Positions 19,473 through 59,909 of a stretch of 64,000 nucleotides of DNA are shown here, one piece after another. Within the stretch, counting starts at the first letter, position 1, and the number at the start of each line of letters is the position of its first letter. The notes below the pieces were generated by a model. The model had not been told where the DNA came from. It ran no database searches and saw only the letters and a program-made list of their open reading frames with translations. Source of the stretch: Mycolicibacterium litorale (lineage in GTDB: Bacteria > Actinomycetota > Actinomycetes > Mycobacteriales > Mycobacteriaceae); contig CP019882.1 of NCBI GenBank assembly GCA_002007745.1, positions 1,674,001-1,738,000 on the forward strand, read 5' to 3'. Both the position numbers and the translations under genes were made by a program.

Positions 19473-20384
19473 CAGCCGTCGGTCATGGCCCGCGCGGGTC
19501 GCTGCCGCCGCCGTTGTGCTGCTCACCGCGGCATGCGCCAACGGCCCCTCCCAGCCGTCGCCGGTCACCTCGTCCCAGGCGCAGCAGCGGACTCAGGCCG
19601 TTGGCCCACAATACGATTCGGTGCACGTCTATGTCGATCCCACCCAATTCGACGCCTTCGTCCGCAGTTGGGTCGTGACGTTTGGGGGACCACGAGCCAG
19701 GCCGTTATCACGCACGTCACGCCGACAGCCAGCACCACTCGTTCCCAGCTGATCCTCTCGCCGGTCGGCACGTTGTCGGTGTTCGGATTCCTCAGCCCCA
19801 TTCCGTACCCGTTCGGCACCGAACGCGGCGGCTGGCTGATGGCAGACTTCGACGCTGGTTTGGCTCAGGCGCGCGCCGCGGGAGCGGCTACCGTCGTCGC
19901 CCCCTTCGTCGACCCCATCGGGCGCGACGCAGTGATCCAATTTCCGGGCGGAGTGAACACCCAGTTGTATTGGCACACAACCGCCCCGTCCTACCCGCCG
20001 TTGCAGACCATTCCCGATAATCGGGTGTACCTGTCCGCTGACTCGGCCGATGCATTCCTGCATTCCTACCGCCAATTCGCCGGTGCATCAGTGGATTCCG
20101 ATGACGCGCACGCTGACGGCGCACTCATCGGCAAGCCGGGGACGGAATTTCGGCAGGTGCGGTTGTCCTCGCCACTCGGCAAGACCGTCGTCATCGTGAC
20201 CAACGGCCAATTGCCGTACCCCTTCGGTCGCGATGTCGCCGGGTACGCGGTGGCCGACGTCGCGGCGACCGTGACCAAGGCCCAGTCGGCGGGTGCCACC
20301 GTCCTGTCGCCTCCGGTCGGACGGCAGCGAAGTGCCGTCCTGCAATTCCCCGGCGGCTATGTCGCCGAGATCCACAACGGGTAA
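19441..20384 (+). pseudogene. VOC/glyoxalase-like lipoprotein, frame broken by a one-base deletion
   Basis: The first frame (start 19441, or GTG 19465) gives a lipoprotein signal ending LLTAAC and the beginning of a VOC domain (HVYVDPTQFDAFVRSWVVTF). It then stops making sense at the G5 run 19684-19688. The next frame continues with TTSQAVITHVTPT and runs to 20384. Adding one base restores a 314-residue (or 306) lipoprotein with two VOC half-repeats, each ending in a block like VIQFPGG..TQLYWH / VLQFPGG..AEIHNG. I infer one intact ancestral gene. A sequencing deletion is as likely as a real mutation. Confidence 0.8.
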
Positions 20385-20409
20385 GGCGCGCAGCATGATC
20401 GGAGGAAGC

Positions 20410-21261
20410 ATGGCAGGGGTGGGCCTCGTCGGGGTCGGTGACATGGGTGTGCAGATGTTGCCGCACCTGCTTGCTGCCGGATTCACCGTGACCGCCTTCG
20501 ACATCGACCAGACCCGGCGCGACGCCGCACTCGCCGCCGGTGCCCGTATCGCCGACTCACCGGCGGCGGTCGCGGCGACGGCGGATGTTGTCATCACACT
20601 GGTGATGTCCGATGACATCCCCGCGGCGCACTTCGGTGCACACGGGGTGCTGGCGGGGCTGCGGCCGGACTCGGTTCTGGTGATCGGATCGACCACGACG
20701 CCAGGGATGATCGACGATGTACGGGCGCACGCCGGCGACGGCGCGCTGCTCGCCGACGCTCCGATCATCGGCGGCGTCCGGTATGCCCGGGAGAAAGCGG
20801 TGACCTTTCTTCTCGGCGGCTGCGACGAGGCGTCGCGCCGCGCCACGGCGGTGCTGGAGGTGCTTGGAAAGGTCGAGCGCGTCGGTGCTTTCGGTTCCGG
20901 GGTGAGGTACAAACTCATTACCAATGCGTTTGTGATGGCGGCCGAAGTAGGCCTGCGAGAAGCGCTCGACCTTACCGACATCCTCGGTGGCGACTACCCT
21001 ACGGCGCTACGTCTGTTCCAGATCGGACCGATGGCCGCGGTGGTCAAGCGCGCCCTCGACGCCGACAACCCTCGTCCGCTGCGGGCATCCGCCCAGGACT
21101 TCGATGCGCTGCTGTCGGTGGTCGAGGACCCGGCGCTACTGCCGATCAGCGCTGCCGGGCGAGAGCGGCTGTGGGCGGCCGTCGACGGCGATCCCGACTA
21201 CGAGCCGATGTTCATCGACCTGACCCGCAGGACGACAGCCAGGCAGCCCTATCGGCGGTGA
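20410..21261 (+). CDS. beta-hydroxyacid dehydrogenase (3-hydroxyisobutyrate dehydrogenase family)
   Basis: 283 residues from the ATG preceded by GGAGGA; an ATG at 20395 is also in frame. The N-terminal NAD(P)-binding motif is GVGLVGVGDMGVQM, and the likely catalytic lysine is in GSGVRYKLITNAFV. The substrate motif usually written DAPVSGG is here DAPIIGGVRY, so the substrate may be unusual. It reduces or oxidises a small beta-hydroxy acid. It is the last gene of the LysR-linked operon. Confidence 0.88.
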   Translation: MAGVGLVGVGDMGVQMLPHLLAAGFTVTAFDIDQTRRDAALAAGARIADSPAAVAATADVVITLVMSDDIPAAHFGAHGVLAGLRPDSVLVIGSTTTPGMIDDVRAHAGDGALLADAPIIGGVRYAREKAVTFLLGGCDEASRRATAVLEVLGKVERVGAFGSGVRYKLITNAFVMAAEVGLREALDLTDILGGDYPTALRLFQIGPMAAVVKRALDADNPRPLRASAQDFDALLSVVEDPALLPISAAGRERLWAAVDGDPDYEPMFIDLTRRTTARQPYRR

Positions 21262-21556
21262 AACCGGCCGCACTGCGCAGGCCGCGCGCTCAGGTTGCGG
21301 CGCCCGTGCCGGTGCGCCCGTCGGAGCATCTCCAAGGCCGCCCTTCGGGATCACCAGGGCGGATCGCCTCCACGATGATGCAATGGTCGCTCTGGGATTT
21401 CTCGGGCTGGCCGGCGCACGTCAACGACGTCTCCGATGTGCGATCCAGCGAGCCGCCGACGCTATGCAGCAACTCCATCAGCCGGATTGTGCGCAGCCGC
21501 GGCCACCCCCGTATGGATCGGGGGTCACGTTCCATCGGTGCGGTTGTGGCTTCGTG
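21262..21556. other. Convergent intergenic region with hairpin
   Basis: 295 bases between two convergent genes with no recognisable gene. An 81-codon open frame on the minus strand (21290-21535) resembles nothing known to me. A 7-bp stem with a 7-base loop (ACCCCCG at 21505-21511, CGGGGGT at 21519-21525) is a candidate bidirectional terminator. Confidence 0.45.
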
Positions 21557-23158
21557 TCAGGCCGGCGTTGCCAATCGGGTCGGCTGGTCGTGGCCGCGCA
21601 GGGTCACCGAGTCACCCAGAACCCAATGTGAACGCTCGTCCTCGCTGGCGTTCTCGACTGTCACCGCTGAGGCAAGCAACCGCGATTCCGCGGACTTGGC
21701 CAGCTCGGAGAGCCGGGCGGCCTCGTTGACCGGCTCACCGATCACCGTGTACTCGAATCTCTCGTTGGCCCCGACGTTGCCGGCCACCACCTGGCCGGCC
21801 GCCACCCCGATGCCGGCCGCGCATTCGGGAACCTCGCGCTCGAGCCGCTGCACGATCGTGCGGGCGGCAGCCAGCGCGTCGTCTTCGGGGTTGTCCAACG
21901 TGACCGGCGCGCCGAACACCGCCAGTGTCGCGTCACCCTCGAACTTGTTGAGCAGCCCGTGGTGTCGGTTGACCTCTTCGACGACGACGGCGAAGAATCG
22001 GTTGAGCAGCTCGACGACCTCGATCGGCGGAAGAGTGCTGACAAGCTGAGTCGAGCCGACGATGTCGACGAAAATGACTGCGACATGGCGTTCTTCGCCG
22101 CCGAGCTTGGGGCGCTGCAGCTCGGCGGCGGCCGCCACTTCGCGTCCCACGTGCCGGCCGAACAGATCGCGGACCCGTTCGCGTTCCCGCAAGCCGTGCA
22201 CCATCGAGTTGAAGCCACGCTGCAGCTCGCCGAGTTCGGTGCCGTCGAAGACCACCAGGCTGGCGTCCAGGTCGCCCTCCTCGACGCGCTTGAGGGCCGA
22301 GCGCACGACTCGCACGGGCGTGGCGATGATCCAGGCCAGGATCCACATCAGGAGAAAGCCGAAGATCAGCGAGACGACCGAGGTGATCAAGACAGCGACC
22401 TCGAGTTGGGTCTTGGTCAGGTTCTGCAGGACCAGCGAGAACATCGCTATGAGCCCGATGCCGATCAGCGGCACACCGGAGCCCAGCATCCAGACCGTCA
22501 TGGTGCGGCCCATGATCCCCGGCGCCAGCCGGTGCGGCGGGGGGCCGGCGGCCAGCGCCTGGGCTGCCACCGGCCGCAGCGCGAACTCGGTGAACAGATA
22601 GGCGCTGGTGGACACCAGTACCCCGCAGAATCCGACGCCGAGGGCGAGCCGGGGTATGAAGTCGGTGTCGAACAAGCCGTACAGGACGGTGAACATGGCG
22701 GTGCCCACGGCCCAGAGCACCAGTTGAGCCCTCGCCACACGCCATGGTGTGAAGAACGCGTTGCGCTGGTCTTCGCGGGTCGGTTCCCGTCCTTCGATGG
22801 CCCAGCGCAGATCGCTCATCGTGCGGGTGGTGATCCACCAACTGCCGAATGCCAGCGCGAATGCGGCGTAGGCGGGGGCAAGGACAAAGGACAGCCACGC
22901 CGGCACGTCGCGCAGGACGCTGGGCACCGGGAATGCCACCGTCTCCAGCAAGGCAGCCACCGCGATCCCGATGAAATTCACCACCAGCATGAAGATCGTG
23001 ACCAGGGTCTGGATCCGCACCCGTCGCTTGGCGGGGCTCTCGGAAACCTTGCCCAGGATCAGGGAGCCGTAGGCCGGGGTGTCGGCCCGGCCGCTCTGCC
23101 GGGTGAGCCGTTCCAGGACACGCCCCAACCGCTGCGCAACGCTGGGCTGGGAACTCAT
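21557..23158 (-). CDS. membrane-bound class III adenylyl cyclase with HAMP domain
   Basis: 533 residues. Six predicted membrane helices (about 50-275) are followed by a HAMP linker (about 272-325) and a class III cyclase domain (about 355-525). Metal-binding Asp365 is in FVDIVGST and Asp409 is in NKFEGDATLAVFG, with Lys405 and Thr471 in base-recognition positions, and Asn478 and Arg482 (VNEAARL) for transition-state binding. This predicts ATP-to-cAMP conversion at the inner membrane. The M. tuberculosis region carries three such genes (Rv1318c-Rv1320c); only one is present here. Confidence 0.93.
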   Translation of the reverse strand: MSSQPSVAQRLGRVLERLTRQSGRADTPAYGSLILGKVSESPAKRRVRIQTLVTIFMLVVNFIGIAVAALLETVAFPVPSVLRDVPAWLSFVLAPAYAAFALAFGSWWITTRTMSDLRWAIEGREPTREDQRNAFFTPWRVARAQLVLWAVGTAMFTVLYGLFDTDFIPRLALGVGFCGVLVSTSAYLFTEFALRPVAAQALAAGPPPHRLAPGIMGRTMTVWMLGSGVPLIGIGLIAMFSLVLQNLTKTQLEVAVLITSVVSLIFGFLLMWILAWIIATPVRVVRSALKRVEEGDLDASLVVFDGTELGELQRGFNSMVHGLRERERVRDLFGRHVGREVAAAAELQRPKLGGEERHVAVIFVDIVGSTQLVSTLPPIEVVELLNRFFAVVVEEVNRHHGLLNKFEGDATLAVFGAPVTLDNPEDDALAAARTIVQRLEREVPECAAGIGVAAGQVVAGNVGANERFEYTVIGEPVNEAARLSELAKSAESRLLASAVTVENASEDERSHWVLGDSVTLRGHDQPTRLATPA

Positions 23159-23207
23159 GGTGGCGTCAGCCTAATTCGTCGGGGCCTCCAGCCCCTAAGC
23201 TTGTGCG

Positions 23208-23882
23208 GTGCGCCTTGTGATCGCCCAATGCACCGTCGACTACCTCGGCCGCCTCACCGCCCACCTTCCCTCGGCTCGTCGGCTGCTGCTGATCAAGGCC
23301 GACGGTTCGGTCAGCATCCACGCCGACGACCGTGCCTACAAGCCGTTGAACTGGATGAGCCCGCCGTGCTGGCTCACCGAGGAGGCCCGCGACGATTCGT
23401 TGCCGGTGTGGGTCGTCGAGAACAAGGCCGGCGAGCAGCTGCGGATCACCATCGAGGGCATCGAGCATGACTCCAGCCACGAGCTGGGGATCGATCCGGG
23501 CCTGGTGAAGGACGGTGTCGAGGCCCATCTGCAGGAGCTGCTGGCCGACCACATCGAGCTGCTGGGTGACGGCTACACGCTGGTGCGGCGCGAGTACATG
23601 ACCGCCATCGGCCCGGTGGACATCCTGTGCCGCGACGAGCAGGGCCGTACGGTGGCCGTCGAGATCAAGCGACGCGGCGAGATCGACGGTGTGGAGCAGC
23701 TGACCCGCTATCTCGACCTGCTCAACCGCGACAGCCTGCTGGCGCCGGTGAGCGGGGTGTTCGCCGCCCAGCAGATCAAGCCACAGGCGCGCACGCTGGC
23801 CACCGATCGCGGGATACGGTGTCTCACTTTGGATTACGACGTGATGCGCGGCATGGACAGCGACGAGTTCCGGCTCTTCTGA
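23208..23882 (+). CDS. nucS: mismatch-specific endonuclease NucS/EndoMS
   Basis: 224 residues, GTG start. This is the non-canonical mismatch-repair nuclease of actinobacteria, which lack MutS/MutL. It has an N-terminal DNA-binding beta domain and a C-terminal RecB-like PD-(D/E)xK nuclease with Asp138, Glu152 and Lys154 (GPVDIL...[13 protein letters not shown]). The C terminus ends in DEFRLF, a beta-clamp-binding peptide. Its stop shares a base with the next gene's ATG (TGATG). Confidence 0.96.
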
Positions 23883-24178
23883 TGCCACGGCGCCGACCGG
23901 CCCGCCGGCGTGACAGCGGCGTTGCGCCGCTGCCCATGTCGCGCCGGATAGAGCCCGGTGCCGACGGATTCGACTACGAGGTGCGACCGATACCGGCAAC
24001 GCGCGCGGTCAAGACCTACCGGTGTCCCGGCTGCGACCACGAGATCCGCCCGGGGACATCCCACGTGGCGGTGTGGCGGGCCGACGATCCCGAGCGCGGG
24101 CTCGACGACCGGCGGCACTGGCACACCCCGTGCTGGGCCAACCGCGCAACGCGCGGCCCGACCCGCAAGTGGTCTTAG
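23882..24178 (+). CDS. conserved small protein with zinc-ribbon-like cysteines
   Basis: 98 residues, Arg-rich at the N terminus. It has a CPGCDHEIRPGTSHV motif and a later HWHTPCW segment, so two Cys pairs/His could bind zinc. It is translationally coupled to nucS (overlap TGATG), and the same pair is adjacent in other mycobacteria, so a role alongside NucS is possible but unproven. Its 3' end overlaps the convergent epimerase gene by 4 bases. Confidence 0.85.
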   Translation: MPRRRPARRRDSGVAPLPMSRRIEPGADGFDYEVRPIPATRAVKTYRCPGCDHEIRPGTSHVAVWRADDPERGLDDRRHWHTPCWANRATRGPTRKWS

Positions 24179-24645
24179 TGGTGAGCTGCCGGTTCGACGA
24201 GCTCCACCAGCACGCCGCCGGCGTCCTTGGGGTGGATGAAGTTGATCCGCGAGTTCGCGGTTCCGCGCCGCGGGGCGTCGTAGATCAACCGCACGCCCTG
24301 GCCACGCAGCTGCTCGGAAATGGCGTCGAGGTCGCTGACCCGGTAGGCCATCTGCTGGATGCCCGGACCGCGCTTGTCGATGAACTTGGCGATGGTCGAG
24401 GTCTCGTCGAGCGGAGCCATCAGCTGGAGCTGCGCGCAGTCCGGAGTGGCGTTCTTCAGCGACAGCATGGCCTCGCGAATGCCCTGGTCTTCGTTGATCT
24501 CCTCGTGCACCAGGATCATGCCGAGGTGCTCGTGGTACCACTGGATGGCCGCGTCGAGATCCGGCACCGCGATGCCGACATGATCGACAGCGGTGACGAG
24601 CGCACTGGCCAGGACTGGACGGGCGTCAACTTGCTCGGCGGTCAT
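24175..24645 (-). CDS. mce: methylmalonyl-CoA epimerase
   Basis: 156 residues starting at MTAEQVDARP. The glyoxalase/VOC fold has the metal His in VDHVGIAV (His22) and the C-terminal glutamate in GGVLVELVEP. It interconverts (S)- and (R)-methylmalonyl-CoA in propionate catabolism, upstream of the B12-dependent mutase. It is divergent from the thiolase gene, a common mycobacterial arrangement. Confidence 0.93.
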   Translation of the reverse strand: MTAEQVDARPVLASALVTAVDHVGIAVPDLDAAIQWYHEHLGMILVHEEINEDQGIREAMLSLKNATPDCAQLQLMAPLDETSTIAKFIDKRGPGIQQMAYRVSDLDAISEQLRGQGVRLIYDAPRRGTANSRINFIHPKDAGGVLVELVEPAAHH

Positions 24646-24737
24646 AACGCAAAGGTAACCTAACGACATCGGATCCAACACTGGGGGATCCGTGGATAGC
24701 CGCATCGCAGCGGTTCGAAACGCCTTTGGAGGTTGGA

Positions 24738-25931
24738 ATGACGACGTCGGTGATCGTTGCTGGAGCACGCACACCCATCGGCAGGTTGATGGGTTCGCTC
24801 AAGGATTTCTCCGGCAGCGATCTGGGCGGGATCGCGATCAAGGCAGCCTTGGAGAAGGCCTTCCCGAATGTGGAAGCGCCGGCGTCGCTGGTCGAGTACG
24901 TGATCATGGGCCAGGTGCTGACCGCCGGTGCCGGACAGATGCCGGCCCGCCAGTCGGCGGTGTCGGCCGGTATCGGTTGGGATGTGCCCGCGCTGAGCAT
25001 CAACAAGATGTGCCTGTCGGGCATCGATTCGATCGCCCTGGCCGATCAGTTGATCCGTGCCGGTGAGTTCGACGTCGTCGTGGCCGGCGGTCAGGAGTCG
25101 ATGACCCGGGCGCCGCATCTGCTGATGAACAGCCGCGAAGGCTACAAATACGGCGACGTGACGGTGCTCGATCACATGGCCTATGACGGCCTGCACGACG
25201 TGTTCACCGACCAGCCGATGGGTGCGCTGACCGAGCAGCGCAACGATGTCGACAAGTTCACCCGGCTCGAGCAGGACGAGTTCGCCGCGACCTCGCACCA
25301 GAAGGCGGCCGCGGCGTGGAAGGACGGGGTCTTCGCCGACGAGGTCGTGCCGGTGGCGATTCCGCAGCGCAAGGGCGAACCGATCGAGTTCGCCGAAGAC
25401 GAGGGCATCCGGGCCAACACCACCGCCGAATCGCTGTCCGGTCTCAAGCCCGCCTTCCGCAAGGACGGCACGATCACCGCCGGCTCGGCGTCTCAGATTT
25501 CCGACGGCGGTTGCGCCGTCGTGGTGATGAACAAGGCCAAAGCCCAGGAACTCGGGCTGAGCTGGCTGTGCGAGATCGGTGCGCACGGCGTGGTGGCCGG
25601 CCCGGATTCCACGCTGCAGTCCCAGCCTGCCAACGCCATCAAGAAGGCGGTCGCGCGGGAGGGCATCAGCATCGATCAGCTCGATGTTATCGAGATCAAC
25701 GAGGCGTTCGCCGCGGTGGCGCTGGCCTCGAGTCGTGAGCTCGGCGTGGACCTGGACAAGGTCAACCGCAACGGCGGGGCGATCGCGGTGGGCCATCCGA
25801 TCGGGATGTCGGGTGCGCGGATCACGCTGCACGCCGCGCTGGAACTCGCCCGGCGTGGGTCGGGCTACGCCGTGGCCGCCCTGTGTGGCGCCGGCGGCCA
25901 GGGCGACGCGCTGATCCTGCGCGCCGGCTAG
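24738..25931 (+). CDS. fadA4: acetyl-CoA C-acetyltransferase (thiolase)
   Basis: 397 residues from the ATG after GGAGG; an upstream TTG in frame is less likely. Active-site residues are Cys92 (NKMCLSG), His353 (GHPIGMSG) and Cys383 (CGAGGQG). The family condenses or cleaves acetoacetyl-CoA. The position beside mce matches the M. tuberculosis fadA4 neighbourhood. Confidence 0.95.
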
Positions 25932-25987
25932 GCAACGTCAACGACGCAGCGTAGTAGCTGGGCCGTCCGGTGCGGCAGAATGGCGGC

Positions 25988-26392
25988 ATGGCGAGCACTT
26001 TCGACGTTCGGACCACGGCGGGGCGTTTCCGCTTGGTGGCCTTGGCCGAAGCGGTAAGTTGGATCGGCCTGCTGGTCGGGATGTACTTCAAGTACCTGGG
26101 CAGCCCACGCACCGAGATCGGGGTGAAGATCTTCGGCATGGCTCACGGACTGGTGTTCATCGCCTTCGTGGTGACCGCCGTGCTCGCCGGCATCGCCTAC
26201 ACGTGGGGTGTGCTGACGTGGTTGCTGGCGTTGCTGGGCAGCATCGTGCCGCTCGGCAGTGTGATCTTCCTCATATGGGCCGACCGGACGGCGAAACTGG
26301 GTTCCGGGCCCCGGCCCGACGCTGGTCCGATGCGTTCTGCTCAACCGGCCGATTCGGCACCGACACCCGACGTGACAAACTTGAGGGCGTGA
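25988..26392 (+). CDS. DUF3817 integral membrane protein
   Basis: 134 residues with about three transmembrane helices (SWIGLLVGMYFKYL, AHGLVFIAFVVTAVLAGIAY, WLLALLGSIVPLGSVIFLIW). The pattern resembles the second DUF3817 protein in this window (49231-49590). Function is unknown. Its stop overlaps the GTG start of the following thioredoxin-like gene (GTGA). Confidence 0.85.
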   Translation: MASTFDVRTTAGRFRLVALAEAVSWIGLLVGMYFKYLGSPRTEIGVKIFGMAHGLVFIAFVVTAVLAGIAYTWGVLTWLLALLGSIVPLGSVIFLIWADRTAKLGSGPRPDAGPMRSAQPADSAPTPDVTNLRA

Positions 26393-27282
26393 CGCGTCCA
26401 CGCCCTCCGATCTCCCCGGCCCTGGCCGGTGCCGTCGATCTGTCCGGTCTCAAACAGCGGGCTCAGCAGCCCAGTAGCGGTGGTGCATCCGCGCCTGCCG
26501 GTGGTGTCGAGATCACCGAGGCGAACTTCGAAGCCGAGGTCCTGGTCCGGTCCAGTCAGGTGCCGGTCGTCGTGCTGCTGTGGTCACCGCGCAGCGACGT
26601 CTGTGTGCAGCTTGCCGAGGTGCTGGCCGGACTGGCCGCCGCCGACAACGGCAAGTGGTCGCTGGCCACCGTCAACGTCGACGTCGTGCCGCGGGTGGCC
26701 CAGATGTTCGGCATCGAGGCGGTGCCCACCGTGGTGGCCCTGGCCGCCGGCCAGCCGCTGGCCAGCTTCCAGGGACCCCAGCCTCCCGACCAGCTCCGCC
26801 GGTGGGTCGATTCGTTGTTGTCGGCCACCGCCGGAAAGCTGAGCGGATCGTCGGACTCCGAGCCCGAGCAGGTCGACCCGGCGCTGACCCAGGCCCGCGA
26901 ACACCTGGATTCCGGTGACTTCGTATCCGCCGCAGCGGCCTACCAGGCCATCCTCGACGCCGATCCGAACCACGCCGAAGCCAAGGGTGCCCTGCGCCAG
27001 ATCACCTTCCTGGAGCGGGCCACCGCACATCGGCCCGATGCCGTGGCTGTCGCCGATGCCGCCCCCGCCGACATCGACGCGGCGTTCGCCGCCGCCGACG
27101 TACAGATCCTCAACCAGGACGTCGTGGCCGCATTCGATCGCTTGATCGCCTTGGTGCGCACGACATCCGGTGACGAACGCACCAAGGTGCGCACCCGGTT
27201 GATCGAACTGTTCGACCTGTTCGATCCCGCCGACCCGGATGTGATCACCGGGCGGCGGAATCTGGCCAACGCGCTCTACTGA
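26389..27282 (+). CDS. thioredoxin-like/TPR protein of the YbbN type
   Basis: 297 residues. An N-terminal thioredoxin fold (about 45-150) is followed by a C-terminal TPR-like helical region (about 165-295). The redox motif WCxxC is replaced by WSPRS, so it is unlikely to be a disulfide reductase; YbbN-type proteins act as chaperone partners. It is coupled by 4 bases to the DUF3817 gene and its end overlaps the convergent glgB by 7 bases. Confidence 0.88.
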
Positions 27283-29485
27283 TCGCCGGCCGGCGCGGGT
27301 TCGAGCCAGATGGCCGAGGTCGGCGGCAGCACCAGCAATGCCGATGCCGGCCGACCGTGCCAGGGCTCGTCGGTGGCCTCGACCGCGCCGAAGTTGCCGG
27401 CCCCGGCACCGTTGTAGACGGTGGCGTCGCTGTTGAGCACCTCGCGCCAGGTCCCGGCATGCGGCAGGCCCAGCCGGTAGCTGCTGTGCTCGGCGCCGGC
27501 GAAGTTGTACACGCAGGCCAGCACCGACCCGTCGCTGCCGTACCGCAGGAAGCTCAGCACATTGTTGGCCGAGTCGTTGGCGTCGATCCAGGAGTAACCC
27601 TCGGGGCGGGTGTCCTGGCTCCACAGCGCCGGTCGGGTGCGGTAGATCTCGTTGATGTCGGCGACGAACCGTAGGATGCCGTCGGAGTAGCTGTGCTCGT
27701 CGAGTTGGTACCAGTCGACGCCGCGTTCCTCCGACCACTCCGCACGCTGCCCGAACTCCTGTCCCATGAACAGCAGCTGCTTGCCCGGGTGCGCCCACTG
27801 ATAGGCCAGCAGGCTGCGTAGCCCGGCCGCCTTGACATGGTCGTTGCCCGGCATGCGTCCCCACAGGGTGCCCTTGCCGTGCACCACTTCGTCATGGCTG
27901 ATCGGCAGCACGTAGTTCTCACTGAACGCGTAGAGCATCGAGAACGTCATCTCGCCGTGGTGATAGGTCCGGTAGATCGGGTCACGGCTGATGTAGTCCA
28001 GCGTGTCGTGCATCCAGCCCATGTTCCACTTCATCGAGAACCCGAGCCCGCCAAGGTTCGTGGGGCGGGTGACACCGGGCCACGAGGTGGATTCCTCGGC
28101 GATGGTCACAATGCCCGGAGCGAGCTTGTGCACGGTGGCGTTCATCTCCTGCAGGAACTGCACCGCCTCGAGGTTCTCCCGCCCGCCGTAGATGTTGGGC
28201 GTCCAACCGCCCGCCGGCCGGGAATAGTCCAGGTACAGCATCGAGGCCACCGCATCGACACGCAGACCGTCGATGTGGAACTCCTGCAACCAGTACAGGG
28301 CGTTGGCCACCAGGAAGTTGCGCACCTCGGCTCGGCCGAAGTCGAAAACATAAGTGCCCCAGTCGAGTTGCTCGCCCCGGTGCGGGTCGGAGTGTTCGTA
28401 GAGCGGGGTGCCGTCGAACCGGCCGAGCGCCCAGGCATCCTTCGGGAAGTGCGCAGGCACCCAGTCGACGATCACGCCGATCCCGGCGCGGTGCAGGGTG
28501 TCGACCAGAAAGCGGAAGTCGTCGGGCGAGCCGAACCGAGACGTCGGCGCGTAATAGGACGTCACCTGATAGCCCCACGAGCCGCCGAACGGATGCTCAG
28601 CCACCGGCAGGAACTCGACGTGGGTGAAACCTTGGGCCAGAACGTAGTCGGTGAGCTGTTCGGCCAGTTCGCGATAGCTCAGACCCGGGCGCCACGAACC
28701 GAGGTGAACCTCGTAGGTGCTCATCGGCTCGAAGACGGGGTTCTGCTGCGCCCGCTGGGTCATCCACTCGGCGTCTGTCCAGCTGTAGTCCGACGTGAAC
28801 ACCCGAGACGCCGTGTGCGGGGGACCTCGGTGGCGAAGGCGAACGGATCGGCACGATCGGTGACCGAGCCGTCCACCCCGTGCACGCGGAACTTGTACAG
28901 CCCGTCGACGGGGAAGCCGGGCCAGAACAGCTCCCACACTCCTGACGACCCCAGCACCCGCATCGGTGCGTCGTTGCCGTCCCAGTGGTTGAACTCGCCG
29001 ATCAGGTTGATGCCCTTGGCGTTCGGTGCCCACACCGCGAACGAGACACCCTCGACGACACCGTCGGGTGTGGTGAACGAGCGGGGATGCGCGCCGAGGA
29101 TCTCCCACAGCCGTTCATGGCGGCCCTCGCCGTAGAGGTACAGATCCATCTCGCCCAGGGTGGGCAGGAACCGGTAGCCGTCGGCGACGGTGATGGTGTG
29201 CCCGCCCGGGTAGGTGACCTCGAGCCGGTAGTCGACGAGGTCGGTGAACGGCAACGCCACCGCGAACACCCCGGAGTCGATATGCGCCAGCGGATGGCGC
29301 TCGCCGCCGATCAGAGCCACCACCTGCTCGGCGTGCGGTTTGAGCGCACGGATGACGGTGTGGTCGTCATACTCGTGCGCGCCCAGGATGCTGTGCGGAT
29401 TGTGATGCACGCCGGCGACCAGTCGGGCCACTTCGCCGGGGTCGGGCGCCAGATACGGGCTGGCGAGTTTGTCGGATCTCGTCAT
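27276..29485 (-). CDS. glgB: 1,4-alpha-glucan branching enzyme, reading frame interrupted by a one-base deletion
   Basis: The minus-strand N-terminal part ([12 protein letters not shown], to about ATEVP) and the C-terminal part (from about [11 protein letters not shown], to 27276) lie in different frames. They meet at a five-base run on the + strand, 28819-28823 (CCCCC as coded). One extra base gives a continuous 736-residue GlgB, close to the usual ~731. It has two N-terminal carbohydrate-binding modules, a GH13 barrel (nucleophile Asp in [10 protein letters not shown], Glu in TIAEESTSW) and a C-terminal domain. It makes alpha-1,6 branches in glucan. It follows glgE by 23 bases in one operon. 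Confidence 0.9.
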
Positions 29486-50428: not shown

Positions 50429-50453
50429 CGTCGAGAATCCAGCAGGAGTACCC

Positions 50454-51122: not shown

Positions 51123-51155
51123 GCCTCTCGCGGTGGCTACTGCCGGCCGGGGTGG

Positions 51156-51929: not shown

Positions 51930-51997
51930 AGTGTTTCGGTCCTCCGTTGCTCGACAGCCGAAGAGTACCGGTCCCACTGAGCGGTGCAGCGGGGCCG

Positions 51998-53899
51998 TCA
52001 GCTTTGCGCACGCGTCGGGACGTGATCGGATCCGGGGCCGGAATCGGGGATCACCGGGATGGTGACGGCTGACGGGTGTGCGGCGTCGTGCAGGATCGTC
52101 TGGTCGGCGACGACGGTCGCGGCGCTGGAACCGAAGGGTGCACCGGTGTTGGGGTTGGGCGCGAACTGCGGGTAGTCGCTGCTGGAGATCTCCAGTCGAA
52201 TCCGGTCGCCGGCTTTGAACAGATAACTCGTCGGCCAGATGGCGATGCGGTACTCGCGGGGCTGGTTCGGCGGTGCCGGCTGGGGATCGGACAACGACTC
52301 GGCGAACGCCGTCCGCAGGATGCCGTTGTTGAGGTTGATGACGTCGCCGTCAGGCTTGACGACCGCGAGCTTGGCGGTGAAATCGGTGTCCACCGCCGAT
52401 GACGCGGCCCAGAGGTCGACTGTCGTGGGGCCGGTCACCTCGGTGTCGGCCGCCAGCGGATCGCTGCTGTAGACCAGGACGTCGGAACGCTGCTCGGCCG
52501 GTGATTGGTCGAACGGGCCCTGCGGGCCGGATCGAGCCCCGCAGCACGAGTGCCCGCCCAGGCTCGGGACGGGGTCGGTGGGGTCGTAGGAATACCGGTC
52601 GGGTGCCTGACCGATGGGCGGCGGCGTGCCGGACAGTGTGCCGGTGCGCGAGCCCAGCCGGCCGTCACCGCCCAAAAAGTATCGGCTCCAACGGGTTTGC
52701 GGTAGCGGCCAGCTCGGTGCCGACTTCCAGGTGTTGGCCCCCATCAGGAAGTAGTCCACCCGCGGTGCGCCGGACACCCCGTTGTCGACGCCCTTGAGGA
52801 AGTGGTCGTACCAGGCCAGCATGAGTTCGTTGATCGGGCTGTCGCCCACCGGGCCGATGTCCTTGAGCAACGGGGTCGGTGTGGAACCTGGCCGGCCCCA
52901 GTCCAAATGGTCCCAGGGTCCGATGACCAGCCGTTGGTTGGCCCGGGCCGTCGGGGTACCGGCCGAATCCACCATCCCGGTGAAGTTCTCGATCCCACCG
53001 GCGAGGAACGCGTCGTACCAGCCTTCGACGTCGAGGACCGGAACCCGCACCGCCGGGTAGCGGTCGCGAATGCTCCACTGGCGCCAGAAGGCGTCGCGTG
53101 TCCAGTGGCTGAGCCAGTCGAAATACCAGGGCGCTACCGCCGGGTTGCCGGGTTGCAGTACCGGCAGTGCTCGGTACGGCCGGAAGTTCAGCCACCGCGT
53201 CGGGTCCGCCGCAGCGGATGTCAGCGCCGTCGCGGTGGCCCCATCGTGCCGGTTGGTCGCCGCGGTGGTGGCCAGCCCGATCGCCCAGGGCAGCACGAAC
53301 GCCAGTCGGAACTCGCCACCCTCGTACATCCACCCGTCGTAGTAGTCCGATGCGGTGTTCGACGGCACGATCGTGACCAGGTGTGGTGGGGTGGTGGTCG
53401 CGGCCAGCCACTGCGTGGCGCCGACGTAGGACGACCCGTACATGCCGACCTTGCCGTTGGAGCCGGGCAGTGCCGCGGCCCATTCCACCGAGTCGTAGCC
53501 GTCGTCGCGGTCGTGGGTGAACTCACTGAACGTCCCACCCGAGGTGCCTTGACCCCGAACATCCTGAATGACAACGAGATAGCAGTGCGAGGCGAACCAA
53601 TCAGGACTCTGGTAGCGCATTGGTTCGACCTGGGCGCCGGACTTGCCGTACTGGGTCCGCATCAGGATCACCGGCACCGGGTCGGCGGTGGCGGGGCGGT
53701 AGACATCGGCGCGCAGCACCGTGCCATCACGCATCCGCGCTGCGACGTCGGTCTGCTTGCCGACGGTGCACGGGCCGCGGTCGCCGGCCGGTGGCCACTG
53801 CGCGCTCACGCCGGGCTGGGCCGGTTGCGCGCACCCGGTGAGCACCATTGTCAGGATGAACAGCACCGCGAGTCCACGCGACATCGCCTTGCGCACCAC
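51998..53899 (-). CDS. CocE/NonD-type (S15) hydrolase lipoprotein
   Basis: 633 residues. N-terminal lipobox LTGC (Cys23) follows a hydrophobic signal. The nucleophile motif GSSYVG (about Ser157, as in GxSYxG of CocE) and the later IGPWDHLDW give an alpha/beta-hydrolase, with a C-terminal beta-sandwich (DTEVTGPTTVDLW). Start GTG at 53899; ATG at 53884 is an alternative. It hydrolyses an ester or X-Pro bond outside the membrane; substrate unknown. Confidence 0.88.
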   Translation of the reverse strand: MVRKAMSRGLAVLFILTMVLTGCAQPAQPGVSAQWPPAGDRGPCTVGKQTDVAARMRDGTVLRADVYRPATADPVPVILMRTQYGKSGAQVEPMRYQSPDWFASHCYLVVIQDVRGQGTSGGTFSEFTHDRDDGYDSVEWAAALPGSNGKVGMYGSSYVGATQWLAATTTPPHLVTIVPSNTASDYYDGWMYEGGEFRLAFVLPWAIGLATTAATNRHDGATATALTSAAADPTRWLNFRPYRALPVLQPGNPAVAPWYFDWLSHWTRDAFWRQWSIRDRYPAVRVPVLDVEGWYDAFLAGGIENFTGMVDSAGTPTARANQRLVIGPWDHLDWGRPGSTPTPLLKDIGPVGDSPINELMLAWYDHFLKGVDNGVSGAPRVDYFLMGANTWKSAPSWPLPQTRWSRYFLGGDGRLGSRTGTLSGTPPPIGQAPDRYSYDPTDPVPSLGGHSCCGARSGPQGPFDQSPAEQRSDVLVYSSDPLAADTEVTGPTTVDLWAASSAVDTDFTAKLAVVKPDGDVINLNNGILRTAFAESLSDPQPAPPNQPREYRIAIWPTSYLFKAGDRIRLEISSSDYPQFAPNPNTGAPFGSSAATVVADQTILHDAAHPSAVTIPVIPDSGPGSDHVPTRAQS

Positions 53900-53936
53900 C
53901 CCTTCACGGTACGCAGCGCGGCGCCGACGCCAGCGG

Positions 53937-56306
53937 CTAGATCATCTCTTTGGCGGTCAGCCAGCGCATGATGGGCCAGCCGGCGAATACCGGTAGCCAG
54001 CACGTCAGGACCCGGTAGAGCAGCACCGAGGGCACTCCGACGGCGGCCGGCACCCCGAACGCGGCAAGGCCGCCGATGAGGGCGGCCTCGACGGCGCCGA
54101 CACCGCCGGGTGTCGGCGCCGCCGAGGCCAGCGTGCCGCCGACCATCGTCACCACGGTGACGGTGACGAACGTGGTGCCGCCACCGAACGCTTCGACGCT
54201 GGCCCACAGTGCCAGTGCTGCCCCGAGAGTCGTTGCTGCACAGCCCAATACGATAAGCGCCAGCCGCTTGGGTTCGCGCATGAGTTCGAGCAGCTCGCCG
54301 CCGACCTCTTTGAGTCTCGGGCGCACCGCGGTACCCAGCCACCGACGCAGCTTGGGCACGAACAGAAACGTCCCGAGCGCGCCGAGGGCGATGCCGCCGA
54401 TCAGATAGAGCAGCGTCGCGTTCGGGACGAAATGCGACAGGTCGGCCGACGCGCCGGCGGCGACGCTGAAGAAGATGAGCAGCGCCACGTGGGTGATCAC
54501 CTGCACCGACTGTTGCAACGCGACCGCGGCGGTGGCCCGCAGGGTGCCCAGCCCGCCCTTCTGCAGGAATCGGGTGCTCAGCGCCAGCCCGCCGACACCG
54601 GCCGGGGTGGTGGTGGCGGCGAAGGTGTTGGCGAACTGCATGATGACCAGGTTGCGGAAACTGACCAGCCCGGACGCGCACGCCCACAACGCCGCTGCCG
54701 CACCGACATAGGTCAGCGCCGACACCGACAGGCCCAGCAGTGCCCACCACCAGTTCGCGTTGCGCAGTTCACTGAAGAAGGTCGGCACGGTGCTGATGAA
54801 GGGGTAGGCGACGTAGACCAGCGCCACCAACAGCACCAGCTGGATGACTTGCTTGCGGGTGAACCGGGTGATGGTCTCGGTCTTGATCTCCTCGGCACCG
54901 GTCTGGCGCTTGACCTCGTCTCGAGCCGCGGCCATCACCGCCTTCGGGTCGTCGACCGTCTTGCGGATCCGCGCAGGCACCGCCGCCCTGGTGAGCCGGC
55001 GCGAGGCGTTGAGCACGGTGTCCTTGCCCAGCGCCTCGACGGCCGCACCGACGGCGGCTTCGGCGCCGAACCGATGGGTCGTCGTCACCAGCAACTGGGC
55101 GATATCGGACTGGAGTTGCTCGTCGGTGGCACCGTATTCGGAGTTGCCGAAGCCGCCGAAGAGCACCTTGCCCGCGTCGACGGTCATCTCCTTGAAACGC
55201 AGGTCGCCGTGTGAGATCTGGTGCCGGTGCAGCACTCCCAGGGCCCCCCACACCGGCGTCACCAGGCCGTCGGCGGAGCCGTCGATCGGTGTGCCGACCG
55301 GTGCGGTGTGGGCGTAGAGCGTCCACCCCCGTTCCAGGGCGGCGACGGCCATGGTGGTGGTGTTGGAGACCCCGAGGTCGCCCACCGCGATCGTCATCAG
55401 CGCGCGGTGCTCGACCGCACGGCGCATGGAGGCCTGCAACGGTGCGGTCTCGGCGTCGCGCAGGATGAGCCAGCGCCAGAACTGCCGCAGCGCTCCACCG
55501 CTGCGCTGGTTGGGCCCGTACATCTCGACCACGACCCGGGCACCGGTGTCGTCGGTCGCGGACAGTTCCAGCGGACCCTGGCCGGCCGGACGCACCACCG
55601 TGAGGGCGGTCACCAGGAAGGCCCGGCGCGACAGCGCGCGCACCGCACCATCGAGGGGCACTTCGAGTGCAGGCGTACCGACCACCCAGACGGTCAGCGC
55701 GCCGACGAACCACCCGACGGCAAGACCCAACAGGGACCGCGCCGGGACCACCGCGCTGACGACCAGGTGGATCGGGACGAACGCCAGCAGTAGCGTCCAC
55801 CACCAGCGCCGCCAGCGGGACGGCAGCCATGGCCCCGACACCGTCAGCACCGCGGCGAGCATCGCGATCCACCGCGGATCGTCGAGGAACTGCGACAGCG
55901 TCGTCGACAGCCGCTCGGACAGGTCGAAGTGCCAGCGCGGCGCGGCGATGCCGTTGCCGGTGATCGACAGCGACAGCACGGCCAGGAACCCCGCCGCCGC
56001 GTACGCCGCGAACAGCTTCCACTGCCGGGCGGCGATCAAGCCGATCAGGATCATGAACGGCAACGCCAGGATCGCCAGGCCGTAGGCCAGGTAGACCAGA
56101 TTGGATTGGGTGGGGGTGAGAACCCCCACGATCCGGGACACCGATTTCTCCAGGCCCACCCAGTCGTTGCGGGTGATCAGCGAGCTGGTCACCACCACGA
56201 CCAGAACGACGGTGGCAAGTCCCAGCCGCACGATGTCGTTGGTGCGCCGGGTCAGCGGCTGCAGCACGTTGCCCGAAACGGCAATCTCGCGCCGGTCGAC
56301 TCGCAT
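53937..56306 (-). CDS. pseudokinase-flippase fusion membrane protein (UPF0104-type C terminus)
   Basis: 789 residues. N-terminal membrane helices (about 25-215) precede a soluble kinase-like region (about 240-480) whose catalytic motif is HGDLRFKEM, with the usual DFG replaced by GFG. The C-terminal third (about 490-789) has eight helices of the lysylphosphatidylglycerol synthase/UPF0104 flippase type (TTTPAGVGGLALSTR). It may translocate a lipid or lipid-linked unit. The kinase domain is probably inactive. Confidence 0.85.
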   Translation of the reverse strand: MRVDRREIAVSGNVLQPLTRRTNDIVRLGLATVVLVVVVTSSLITRNDWVGLEKSVSRIVGVLTPTQSNLVYLAYGLAILALPFMILIGLIAARQWKLFAAYAAAGFLAVLSLSITGNGIAAPRWHFDLSERLSTTLSQFLDDPRWIAMLAAVLTVSGPWLPSRWRRWWWTLLLAFVPIHLVVSAVVPARSLLGLAVGWFVGALTVWVVGTPALEVPLDGAVRALSRRAFLVTALTVVRPAGQGPLELSATDDTGARVVVEMYGPNQRSGGALRQFWRWLILRDAETAPLQASMRRAVEHRALMTIAVGDLGVSNTTTMAVAALERGWTLYAHTAPVGTPIDGSADGLVTPVWGALGVLHRHQISHGDLRFKEMTVDAGKVLFGGFGNSEYGATDEQLQSDIAQLLVTTTHRFGAEAAVGAAVEALGKDTVLNASRRLTRAAVPARIRKTVDDPKAVMAAARDEVKRQTGAEEIKTETITRFTRKQVIQLVLLVALVYVAYPFISTVPTFFSELRNANWWWALLGLSVSALTYVGAAAALWACASGLVSFRNLVIMQFANTFAATTTPAGVGGLALSTRFLQKGGLGTLRATAAVALQQSVQVITHVALLIFFSVAAGASADLSHFVPNATLLYLIGGIALGALGTFLFVPKLRRWLGTAVRPRLKEVGGELLELMREPKRLALIVLGCAATTLGAALALWASVEAFGGGTTFVTVTVVTMVGGTLASAAPTPGGVGAVEAALIGGLAAFGVPAAVGVPSVLLYRVLTCWLPVFAGWPIMRWLTAKEMI

Positions 56307-56412
56307 CGCTGATCATCCCTGTGGCCTCGGTGCCGCACGGCCTGCGGCTGCGGCCAAACCTATCCCGACTTGCTGGGCGTGGGACTCATTGCCCGGCGCG
56401 TGCCGGACCGAC

Positions 56413-56958
56413 TCAGACGAAGCCGATGTACCCGAGCAGGGCCGCCGCGCCGACGACGATCAGCGGGTTGGTGTTGGTGCGCAGGAAGATCACCGTGGCG
56501 ACGGCGGTGATCAGGTAGGCCCGCCAGTCGTGGTCGGCGGCCCGGCTCATCACCAGTGAGCTGGCCATGATCAACCCCACGGTCAGCGGGGCGAAGCCCT
56601 TCTGCACCGCCAGGCGCAGCTTGGACTTCTCGGCCTTCTGCCAGGACACCGTGATGAGGTACATCAGGGTGGCGGCGGGCACGATCATCGCCACGGTCGC
56701 CAGGACGCCGCCGACGATGCCGCCGATCACCCCGGCCGTTCCCAGGCCCGCCGCGTATCCGACCAGGGCGACGATCAGGATGCTGGGTCCGGGGGCGGCC
56801 TGGGAGATCGAGAAGATATCGGCGAACTGCGAATTGGTCAGCCAGTGGTGACCGGTGACCGCCTGCAGATGCATGTCGGGCAACACCGTGTTGCCGCCGC
56901 CGATGGACAGCAGCGACAACGAGCCGAACATGCTCAGCAGGGCGAGATAGGTCTTCAT
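56413..56958 (-). CDS. chromate transporter ChrA, C-terminal half
   Basis: 181 residues, about six helices (LSMFGSLSLLSIGGGNTVLP, AAPGPSILIVALVGYAAGLG). The CHR family motif GGxxxVLP region is present. It is the second of two adjacent half-size proteins that together correspond to a full ChrA; its start overlaps the first half by 4 bases (ATGA). Chromate or sulfate movement is inferred from the family. Confidence 0.9.
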   Translation of the reverse strand: MKTYLALLSMFGSLSLLSIGGGNTVLPDMHLQAVTGHHWLTNSQFADIFSISQAAPGPSILIVALVGYAAGLGTAGVIGGIVGGVLATVAMIVPAATLMYLITVSWQKAEKSKLRLAVQKGFAPLTVGLIMASSLVMSRAADHDWRAYLITAVATVIFLRTNTNPLIVVGAAALLGYIGFV

Positions 56959-57521
56959 GCCTGGGCACGCTTCCGCGGCCAGGCCCACAGCAGGCTCAGC
57001 GGCGCCAGGATCGCCAGGGTTTCCAGCAGCGGCCAGCGCAGCACCCCGTTGAGCACGAACGCGGCCCCGAAGAACACCACCGGCACCACGCCGGTCAGGC
57101 ATTTCTTGCCGGTCTGGATCACCATCGTCAGGGTCAACGCGACGGCCGCGGCTGATGCGCCGTGCAACGCCCCCTTGACCGCGGGGATCTCCTTGAAGGT
57201 GAAGTAGACGAAGGCCAGGGCCAGGACGATGGCGACCGGCACGGTGCACAGCCCCACCAGGGCCGCGATAGCGCCTGGGATGCCCTTGAGTTTGGCGCCG
57301 ACGAAGACGGCCAGGTTCACCTGGTTGGCGCCGGGGACGATCCGGCACATGGTCATGGCGCTGAGGAACTCCTCCTCGCCCATCCATTGCTTCTGCACGA
57401 CGATCACTTCCCGTGACCACGCCGACAGCCCGCCGCCGAACGAGGCCAGTGCGATGTGATTGAAGGTCAGCGCGATCTGCAGCAGCGACACCTTCTGCAG
57501 GGTCGGTCCGGACTCACTCAT
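56955..57521 (-). CDS. chromate transporter ChrA, N-terminal half
   Basis: 188 residues from the ATG of MSESGPTLQ (57533 is an alternative start). The FGGGLSAWSREVIVVQK and PGANQVNLAVFVGAKL blocks are the CHR N-terminal half. Its start overlaps the end of the phospholipase D-like gene by 8 bases, so the three genes form one leftward unit. Confidence 0.9.
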   Translation of the reverse strand: MSESGPTLQKVSLLQIALTFNHIALASFGGGLSAWSREVIVVQKQWMGEEEFLSAMTMCRIVPGANQVNLAVFVGAKLKGIPGAIAALVGLCTVPVAIVLALAFVYFTFKEIPAVKGALHGASAAAVALTLTMVIQTGKKCLTGVVPVVFFGAAFVLNGVLRWPLLETLAILAPLSLLWAWPRKRAQA

Positions 57522-58503
57522 GGACCAGGTCATCGTCGTGCGGGAATTCGTCCTCGACGGGACGGTTCTGCTCGAGCGGATCCGGCGGCACGTAGTGGTG
57601 GGAGATGTCCCAATCGCTTTTGAAGACGTCCCTGAGCCGTCCGACCACGTCGGGTTCGGTGATGGTGATGCCCAGTTCGCGACGCAGGTCGAAGGCGCTG
57701 CGATCGATGTTCATCGAACCGACCAGCGCGCTGGTGTTGTCCACGATCAGCAACTTGGCATGGACCCGCAGATTCTTCTGTTTGCGCACCTTGACCCCGA
57801 AGCGGCTCAAGGTGCGCAGCGAGGCGAACGTGTCGAGGATGTCCCATTCACTGATGCCGTGCTTGCCGCCGCACAGCACCTTCACCTTCACGCCGCGATG
57901 CGCCGCCGCGGCGATGTGGTCGAGGATGACCGCATCCACATACTTCGGATGCTGAATGTAGAGCCGACGCTGTGCGGTGTCGATGAACCGGGCCATGTGG
58001 TAGCGCGAGTTCGAATTGCTCCACAGCAGCCCCTCGTACTTCGGCGGGGTGAAGTCGCGATGTTGCCAGTCGGCGTTGAACACATCGATGATCTGGGCGA
58101 CGTGCAGCGGATCGTGGGTGATGATCCCGTAGTCCCGGGTCAGGGTGAAGTACTTGATCATCAGGTTGAAGGTGGCGACCATCGCGGCCCGTTCGTCGAC
58201 GACGATCGACTTCTCATGGGTGACATAGAATTTCGGGCTCGACCACTGGACGTCGATGCCTGCGGCCTTGAGCTGTTCGTAGCTCTCGTCGTTAGCCCGG
58301 TCGCCGCCCGACCGCTGCGGGTTCAGCATGACTCGGACGTCGACACCGGCCTTCTTCCGGTCGATCGCGGCCTCGAGCAGGCTGGCCTCGGTGAAGGTGA
58401 ATTGCTTTATCAGCAGCGAGGTTTGCGCGCTCAGGATGAACTCGCGAACCGGGTCCAAACCGTCGTCGGGCTCGACGATCAGGTACGGAGCGTTAGCAGG
58501 CAT
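57514..58503 (-). CDS. phospholipase D-like protein with two HKD motifs
   Basis: 329 residues, no signal peptide. It has two complete HxKx4D motifs: His96-Lys98-Asp103 (THEKSIVVDE) and His248-Lys250-Asp255 (VHAKLLIVDN). The family includes phospholipases, cardiolipin synthases and nucleases. It is the first gene of the ChrA unit; a role in membrane or DNA chemistry is not resolved. Confidence 0.88.
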   Translation of the reverse strand: MPANAPYLIVEPDDGLDPVREFILSAQTSLLIKQFTFTEASLLEAAIDRKKAGVDVRVMLNPQRSGGDRANDESYEQLKAAGIDVQWSSPKFYVTHEKSIVVDERAAMVATFNLMIKYFTLTRDYGIITHDPLHVAQIIDVFNADWQHRDFTPPKYEGLLWSNSNSRYHMARFIDTAQRRLYIQHPKYVDAVILDHIAAAAHRGVKVKVLCGGKHGISEWDILDTFASLRTLSRFGVKVRKQKNLRVHAKLLIVDNTSALVGSMNIDRSAFDLRRELGITITEPDVVGRLRDVFKSDWDISHHYVPPDPLEQNRPVEDEFPHDDDLVHE

Positions 58504-58593
58504 AAGATTCGGATGCTAGCACCGGAACTCTCGGATCAGTTTGCCGTTCAGTGAATGTTGGGCGCGTCGTTGCCGCTCGTTACCGGCGGTGAC

Positions 58594-59190
58594 TCACGGC
58601 GTCGGTGCGGCGGCCGGGTCGGCGATGGCCGGCCCGAGGCCCGGCGGCAGGTGGATGTCGGGTCCTGGCGCGGTGCCGGGCAGCGGCTGACCGAGTTGGT
58701 GGTCGTCGACCTGACCCAGCAGCGCACCGCGAAGAGCGCCCGCCTGGTACATCTCGTGCACGCGACGCAGGAAGGCCAGTCGCCCGGCGCTCGGGTCCTC
58801 GGTGGTGGGCCCGAGGCCGACATCGGCGACGCCTTCGCCGGGGGCGGCCGGCGCGACATTCTGCGGGAGAAGGTACTGGCTGTCGAACGCGTTGAGGTTC
58901 GCAGCGGTGACTGCCGCGGGCCCGCCGGGTGCCGACGGCACCGCGTTCTGCGCCAGCAGTAGTCCGGCAGCGTAGCTCGACAGGTCGGGCAGCCCCAGCG
59001 GCCCGGCGGCCGGTGCCCCGCTCTGCGCCAGCGCGCTACCGATGCCCGGCGGTGGCCCAACGGTGGCCGGCGCGGCCGGGTCGGCCGGGTCGGCGACCAG
59101 CGGATCAGGATCGGCGGCGGCCGGGACTGCTGTCGCCGTGCTGACGAGAAGAACTGAGACCCCGAGCGCAGTCGCCAGACCTCTGCCCAT
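58594..59190 (-). CDS. exported Pro/Ala-rich protein
   Basis: 198 residues. The signal peptide ends ...TATAVPAAADP (Sec-type, cleaved after about residue 27). The mature part is rich in Pro/Ala and carries QLGQPLPGTAPGPDIHLP near the C terminus, a block shared with the neighbour at 59264. The function is unknown; the two are tandem paralogues. Confidence 0.85.
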   Translation of the reverse strand: MGRGLATALGVSVLLVSTATAVPAAADPDPLVADPADPAAPATVGPPPGIGSALAQSGAPAAGPLGLPDLSSYAAGLLLAQNAVPSAPGGPAAVTAANLNAFDSQYLLPQNVAPAAPGEGVADVGLGPTTEDPSAGRLAFLRRVHEMYQAGALRGALLGQVDDHQLGQPLPGTAPGPDIHLPPGLGPAIADPAAAPTP

Positions 59191-59263
59191 ACTGCCCGGT
59201 CTCCTTCGGCTCGATCCTCGGGACACCGTAATACGCGACGGGTGAAGCCGGCAGCGTTGTCGG

Positions 59264-59909
59264 TCAGCCGGCGGGAGCCGGTGGTGGGGCGAGCAGCGCA
59301 GGATCGGCCGGGGAACCGGCGCAGCGGGGTTCGGCGCTGCGGCGGGGTCCGGCAGGAACTGTTCGGGGCCGGCCGGGATGTTGGTACCCGGTGGCGGCGC
59401 GGTGCCGGGCAGCGGCTGGCCGAGCTGGTCGGCCGGCATGCGGCCCAGCGCGCCGTGGATCATCGCGTGCACGCCTTTGAGGGCGTCGACGCGCGCGAAC
59501 GGCCCGGGGGGTACGCCGGTTTGCAGATCGTAGGGCGACGGGGTCGGATCGTCGGCGCCCTGAACCGTGCGATAGGTCTGCGGGAAGAGCATCTGACTGG
59601 CGTCGAGGACGTCGGCGTTCGGTGGGGCCGCCGGGGCAGTGCCTGCCACGGCGGGCGCAGGTGTCTGTCCGAGCAGCAGCTGGTTGCCGGCGGGCCCGGC
59701 GAGGTAGCTGGCGAATCCGCTGACCGAGTCCGAGATGGTTGCGGGCGGGGGATGAAGCCCTGCGGCGGCGGTGCCGCGGGATCGACAGGCACGGCGGGGT
59801 CGGCGGGGGGCGGGTCGGCGGCGGCGGTCGCCATGGAGACGGCCGCCGCCCCTACCGCGAGCACGGCTGCGGCCGCACCCGTGACGAGCAATCTGTGCAG
59901 GTCGCGCAT
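59264..59909 (-). pseudogene. exported Pro/Ala-rich protein paralogue with two one-base deletions
   Basis: The N-terminal signal MRDLHRLLVTGAAAAVLAVG leads to PAAPPPQGFIP, where the frame is lost at the G5 run 59747-59751. It resumes with DSVSGFASYLAGPAGNQ...QLGQPLPGTAP, is lost again at the G4 run 59310-59313, and ends LLAPPPAPAG at 59264. Adding one base at each site gives a 215-residue paralogue of the upstream protein. Confidence 0.75.

Follow-up and report, generated by a model that had tools for sequence, protein, structure and literature searches.

Long-read assemblies are known to retain errors that, in the available sections of the Homopolish, Polypolish and Kastor reports, are chiefly homopolymer indels that shift reading frames, in numbers that can reach hundreds or more in one genome (PMC8011154, PMC8812927, PMC12007338); in the example given for Kastor, deletion errors were commonest after runs of four to five (PMC12007338). 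Run-length changes in coding G/C runs have also been described as phase variation in Mycobacterium tuberculosis, where the accessible parts of two reports speak of frameshift scars, of a glpK tract of 7-10 C and of essential genes being spared more (PMC8339072, PMC10159617). In Corynebacterium, G-rich octamers known as architecture imparting sequences (AIMS) favour the leading strand, with a bias of 856:61 given for C. aurimucosum in the portions seen of the two relevant papers (PMC2830990, PMC3022926). Here we describe a stretch of 64,000 nucleotides of the Mycolicibacterium litorale chromosome (G000:C1:1674001-1738000, the window hereafter), in which six frame breaks, each at a run of G followed by A on the + strand, interrupt genes of both strands. 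The six breaks are very probably long-read consensus errors that undercount G/C homopolymers by one, and the shared G-then-A context likely stems from a polar GGGGGA motif, rather than from a strand preference of the error. The M. litorale sequence shares single-base homopolymer indels and frameshifted conserved genes with the long-read errors in the three reports, as far as their available text goes, and differs from the Kastor example, which had more A/T errors, in that its sites lie at G/C runs in a chromosome of 67% GC.

The M. litorale chromosome (G000) is a single contig of 6,103,712 bases, and the named relatives found for its atp region belong mostly to Mycobacterium and Mycolicibacterium. 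It was compared with a panel of 396 genomes of the genus, a number that includes G000 itself; the panel was an even sample of a larger group. By atpD the nearest among these were G299 (93%), then G004, G113 and G068 (92%); as G004 alone gave only about 80 kb of alignment, G299 was added as a second comparison genome. AIMS-type octamers were defined as G(A/T/C)GGGGGA or (T/C)GGGGGAG, with overlapping copies counted apart. A first-pass annotation had described the six sites as + strand runs of 3-5 G followed by A, three in + genes and three in - genes; all six coordinates were confirmed in the sequence, and the gene pieces were found on both strands as it had said:

19684..19688, + strand run: break 1, in the + strand gene for a VOC/glyoxalase-like lipoprotein, with pieces at 19441-19683 and 19686-20384
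28819..28823, + strand run: break 2, in glgB, a - strand gene at about 27276-29485, with an AIMS-type octamer from 28817
42898..42900, + strand run: break 3, early in cysM, a + strand gene with its second piece at 42903-43835
46515..46518, + strand run: break 4, in rph (ribonuclease PH), a + strand gene at 46339-47123
59310..59313, + strand run: break 5, close to the C-terminal end of a - strand gene for an exported protein rich in Pro and Ala, at about 59264-59909
59747..59751, + strand run: break 6, again in the exported protein gene but in its N-terminal part, with an AIMS-type octamer from 59745

Relatives have these genes in one frame, with a strength of evidence that varies by site. The annotation's description of the lesions as single-base deletions in G-runs is supported at glgB and rph, where DNA alignments with both G299 and G004 have a lone gap of one base, but not at cysM, where the gap against G299 is not placed in the G-run itself nor inside a G/C run of the aligned relative; at several sites outside the window, likewise, the gap does not fall in a G or C run of the relative aligned. 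The glgB site is also a frame switch in the frame model described below, and its homologues, among the best 120 matches listed, measure 726-756 aa in 117 cases and 609-638 aa in the other three. For rph, the site is covered in 28 of 29 other loci, and a single frame suffices at all 28, whereas M. litorale needs two. Homologues of cysM are 317-328 aa long in all of the best 120 matches listed, and the N-terminal part of the G299 protein matches another frame up to 42900; tblastn also carries one match over the site by way of a gap of three residues; we take this match to be a chance look-alike. The two pieces of the VOC lipoprotein match the same 306-aa protein (P0241) separately, residues 1-73 at 85% and the remainder at 90%, while neither piece gives a Pfam match. 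The exported protein has a clear N-terminal break, its N-terminal part being best matched in a frame that differs from that of the middle, and a gap is seen there against G004, with more gaps close by. The C-terminal break is a weaker case in a Pro/Ala-rich sequence: the C-terminus of the G004 protein resembles two frames successively, with a stop in the second, and the DNA alignment is too gappy to position the break.

Two of the broken genes lie in stretches that differ among the relatives. The region around the VOC lipoprotein gene (17090-21556) has no nucleotide match of at least 300 bases in the fetched G004 stretch or of at least 400 bases in the fetched G299 stretch, and is possibly a lineage-specific insert. 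The region around cysM (42108-43783) has no blastn match of at least 300 bases to the fetched G004 stretch, where about 40 bases separate the flanking matches, so that G004 seems to have no cysM at this locus.

Similar breaks occur beyond the window. A seven-track frame model, trained on 1.004 Mb of the chromosome (two of four sampled blocks), was run over 1.804 Mb (1.614-2.218 Mb, with the window inside, and 4.2-4.6, 0.4-0.8 and 5.2-5.6 Mb); the M. litorale counts below refer to this sample unless stated otherwise. It contained 415 same-strand frame switches, and 71 of these passed strict limits intended to remove ordinary gene overlaps, 70 in the deletion sense and one in the insertion sense. 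Strict sites, which by construction keep the coding signal on either side of the switch, were present in all four blocks. The model is insensitive: among the six window breaks only glgB passes as strict, being the only one of the 71 sites inside the window, while rph just misses, its 5′ frame staying open 38 nt beyond the switch where the limit is 40. The 71 sites are therefore a lower bound, and sites near gene ends are missed. Applied unchanged to 400 kb of G299 and 220 kb of G004, the model yielded four strict sites (one deletion-sense, three insertion-sense) and none, respectively; since it had been trained on M. litorale, a symmetric count of isolated gaps makes a fairer control. Eleven of the 71 strict sites fall within G299-aligned stretches, and all 11 show a net -1 gap there. 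Over 208.6 kb aligned with G299, isolated coding single-base gaps numbered 13 missing in M. litorale and none missing in G299; over 79.8 kb aligned with G004 they numbered three and none, and the control pair G299/G004 gave one versus none over 120.3 kb. Gap clusters that change frame against G299 were also tabulated (n = 112: 64 non-coding or unclear, 21 broken in M. litorale, eight broken in G299 and 19 other), but the isolated-gap count was preferred, as many of the cluster rows are gene-boundary differences. Interior nonsense substitutions amounted to one in 61,720 aligned codons of M. litorale and three in 61,435 in the reverse direction.

The losses depend on run length. Coding G/C runs of G299 that are a base shorter in M. 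litorale numbered 0/2457 at length 3, 0/274 at length 4, 4/31 at length 5 and 1/1 at length 6, or 0/2,731 for runs of 3-4 and 5/32 for runs of 5-6, with runs differing by substitution omitted. In the reverse direction, with the base lost in G299, the counts were 2/2418, 0/276 and 0/26 at lengths 3, 4 and 5, no runs of 6 being present. Against G004 the coding counts were 1/826, 0/83, 0/8 and 1/1 at lengths 3 to 6 (pooled, 1/909 and 1/9). Truncation of every long run was ruled out, as G/C runs of 5-7 are about equally frequent in the M. litorale, G299 and G004 stretches.

The broken genes, named via their intact copies in G299, include thrB, glgB, rph, a Mg2+ P-type ATPase gene (broken twice), an acyl-CoA dehydrogenase-like gene and FAS-I. 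The FAS-I gene, which measures about 3,075 aa from stop to stop in G299, is frame-broken near G000:C1 1794838 (window coordinate 120838), and its helical domain has a single occurrence in the M. litorale genome. The homoserine kinase gene thrB (G000:C1:1660774-1661570, upstream of the window at window coordinate -13103) is the one strong locus for its family, present as two matches below the family cut-off, the frame break splitting the profile match in two; a much weaker match lies elsewhere in the genome. FAS-I is indispensable in mycobacteria, and a living cell carrying these breaks is implausible. The annotation had left two interpretations side by side, an error of the consensus specific to one strand or a deletion process biased by strand; its artefact component is strongly supported by the near-absence of insertions, the run-length threshold at 5, the core genes hit and the 13:0 count against G299, whereas its strand specificity did not survive the wider sample, as follows.

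Before counting G against C we set aside the one insertion-sense site, five ties and two sites without a run of at least 3; in the 70 deletion-sense sites the longest run on the + strand was then G at 30 and C at 33. The annotation had taken the + strand excess of G-runs as a bias, to be discarded if equal numbers of C-run deletions appeared elsewhere, and they did, the strict C-run sites including window coordinates -54579, 108841 and 120838. By arm the + strand counts were 20 G to 12 C on the right and 10 G to 21 C on the left. Leading-strand sites thus made up 41 of 63 (p = 0.02 against 50:50), while 36.7 (sd 3.9) are expected from the supply of runs. Six of the 63 sites lack a single next base and were omitted from next-base counts; at the remaining 57, the distribution over strand and next base agrees with the availability of coding runs of at least 5 (chi-square p = 0.64). 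Sites followed by A were 15 on the leading and three on the lagging strand, and the loss rate per coding run of at least 5 was 4.9% for A-followed runs on the leading strand, 4.8% on the lagging strand, where the counts are small, and 2.6-3.8% for runs followed by C or T. The equal G and C counts, the leading share near run supply and the chi-square fit together indicate that the process has no inherent preference for G-runs on the + strand.

The supply of runs, in turn, is polar. Since dnaA lies at 481-966, the window is on the right arm and its + strand is the leading strand. GGGGGA has the highest leading-strand skew score among all hexamers, at 398:99, with 168:12 for GGGGGAG and little skew for GGGGGC and GGGGGT. 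The same skew is found in relatives, at 104:9 in the G299 stretch, 6:46 in the G004 stretch, which is in the opposite orientation, and 120:22 over 30 atp-region loci. Codon usage was ruled out as the source of the excess, the leading-strand copies of GGGGGA lying in same-strand genes (148), in opposite-strand genes (138) and in intergenic DNA (78). This independence of gene strand agrees with three window sites lying in + genes and three in - genes. In the window itself, 19 G-runs of at least 5 are followed by A, against two in the mirror sense, and the one-strand look of the window likely arises because GGGGGA lies mostly on the leading strand.

We therefore favour a scheme in which a long-read assembly would have counted a G or C homopolymer one base short, thereby breaking the frame of an intact gene. 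The sequence would presumably have come from long reads, of whichever platform, that lacked adequate polishing; the error itself would be strand-neutral, and the polar GGGGGA of the leading strand would place the long runs on the + strand in the window. A strand-biased deletion process is not needed. Several observations nevertheless weigh against homopolymer undercalling. Most five-base coding runs aligned with G299 (27 of 31) are intact; against G004 none of eight runs of 5 lost a base, although the single run of 6 did; and non-coding runs of at least 5 lost a base in none of nine cases against G299, the runs being few. The M. litorale genome is listed as 100% complete, and the case for an artefact comes from sequence comparison; no second assembly of the species was found among the best 120 matches listed for each gene, the top identities being 95% for glgB, 93% for cysM and 90% for the VOC lipoprotein. 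Followed by A at six of six, the window sites also exceed the supply of runs, A following 21-35% of the window's + strand G-runs, depending on the length limit. It should be kept in mind that this pattern was picked post hoc and includes the cysM site, whose gap the alignment does not place in the run; outside, A followed at 18 of 57 sites against a background of 22% (p = 0.11), and we take the six of six as chance on top of local run supply. Finally, mycobacterial NucS does not repair frameshifts, and overexpression of DinB2 led to 100-fold more -1 frameshifts in a run of four G, according to the available part of PMC10159617.

These last data speak for true slippage in the sequenced clone, with single-base G/C-run losses left uncorrected by NucS, and the restriction of the losses against G299 to coding runs of at least 5 would suit it, as would the slipping of mycobacterial polymerases on G/C runs; we nonetheless consider it improbable. 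The 70 deletions are accompanied by one insertion, whereas polymerase slippage yields both signs in the sections seen of PMC10159617. Each strict site is flanked by intact coding signal, as its definition requires, few stops have arisen by substitution, and the sampled relatives are nearly without such sites. FAS-I and thrB are broken, which counts against real slippage because essential genes carry indels less often in M. tuberculosis isolates, where the accessible text of PMC8339072 gives indels in 28.4% of essential genes and 77.1% of nonessential genes outside the PE-PPE families. The phase variation of that species resembles the M. litorale pattern in that coding G/C runs change in length, within one genus, but the runs in M. 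litorale are of about 5, nearly all changes are deletions and core genes are broken, so that neither the presence of both +1 and -1 changes nor the sparing of essential genes is seen. A still bolder version, to which we give slightly more than half that credence, would have the losses real and selection for the polar GGGGGA forcing slippery G5 runs into genes on both strands as contingency loci; if true, chromosome-segregation signals would burden the whole genome with strand-ordered frameshifts, in a genus that lacks frameshift repair.

An error or deletion process specific to G-runs followed by A, on the + or the leading strand, would account directly for the six of six in the window, and the leading-strand excess of 41 in 63, together with the 15:3 split of A-followed sites, points the same way. 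We place it only just below real slippage: the leading excess lies close to what run supply predicts, the A-followed loss rates are practically equal on the two strands, the chi-square test shows no clear departure from run supply, and the equal C-run counts in the sample contradict it. Least probable by a wide measure, and very nearly dismissed here, is decay of the genome, or programmed frameshifting, affecting a handful of dispensable genes. The VOC lipoprotein and the exported protein, as possibly dispensable, would be candidates, but the strict sites extend over all four blocks and include core genes, the mixed lesions of decay are absent from the aligned part, and at the glgB, cysM and rph sites the relatives examined read through in a single frame.

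If homopolymer undercalling is the cause, glgB, cysM, rph, thrB and FAS-I should be kept out of pseudogene records for this species, and many further false pseudogenes are predicted in the same assembly. More generally, a homopolymer motif that is polar by replichore can make a strand-neutral error look strand-biased, which is a trap for anyone surveying the strand bias of indels among mycobacteria and corynebacteria.

FtsK-orienting polar sequences (KOPS) are bound by the gamma domain of FtsK and direct its translocation. GGGGGA would fit a chromosome-architecture signal of the AIMS/KOPS type, read by a DNA translocase, and the GGGGGAG-type octamers may be a mycobacterial KOPS candidate. AIMS-type octamers numbered 283 on the leading and 29 on the lagging strand, and their density and bias increase toward the terminus over the four blocks, for which no randomised control was run: per 100 kb, leading to lagging, from 11.8:2.5 at 0.4-0.8 Mb to 19.0:1.0 at 1.6-2.2 Mb on the right arm, and from 14.0:2.2 at 5.2-5.6 Mb to 16.2:1.0 at 4.2-4.6 Mb on the left. 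Those of the window are:

515..60485, + strand: eleven AIMS-type octamers, starting at 515, 5595, 5596, 7631, 9021, 12692, 28817, 39792, 59745, 60477 and 60478, with none on the - strand
5595..5603, + strand: the two overlapping octamers in atpD, at the site that the annotation had cited as an intact control

The 9-mer CGGGGGAGT has 89 copies genome-wide, against 15 (11:4) for the pattern read backwards, and 86 of the 89 are on the leading strand, with 32 of 34 on + before 2.64 Mb and 54 of 55 on - after 2.67 Mb. With three exceptions in the 89, its polarity switches between 2,637,844, up to which it is +, and 2,673,206, from which it is -. Between the two strand blocks, at 2,662,981, lies a dif-like site with two mismatches, the sole match within three mismatches to the query, a 21-base part of the dif sequence of Frankia, another genus than the host, as given in the available text of PMC3025954. 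Long strand blocks of CGGGGGAGT occur in G337 and, among the matches listed, in G113 too. M. litorale thus shares with Corynebacterium, as far as the portions seen of PMC2830990 and PMC3022926 go, the octamers, their leading-strand bias, the rise toward the terminus and the convergence on a dif-like site; known there, the octamers are now seen in a genome of the Mycobacterium group and in relatives of it, from sequence alone. A literature search, which subscription papers lay outside, found no report of these octamers for Mycobacterium. A second polar 9-mer, CGTTGCCGC, showed a leading-to-lagging ratio of 100:32, possibly owing to a repeated gene family.

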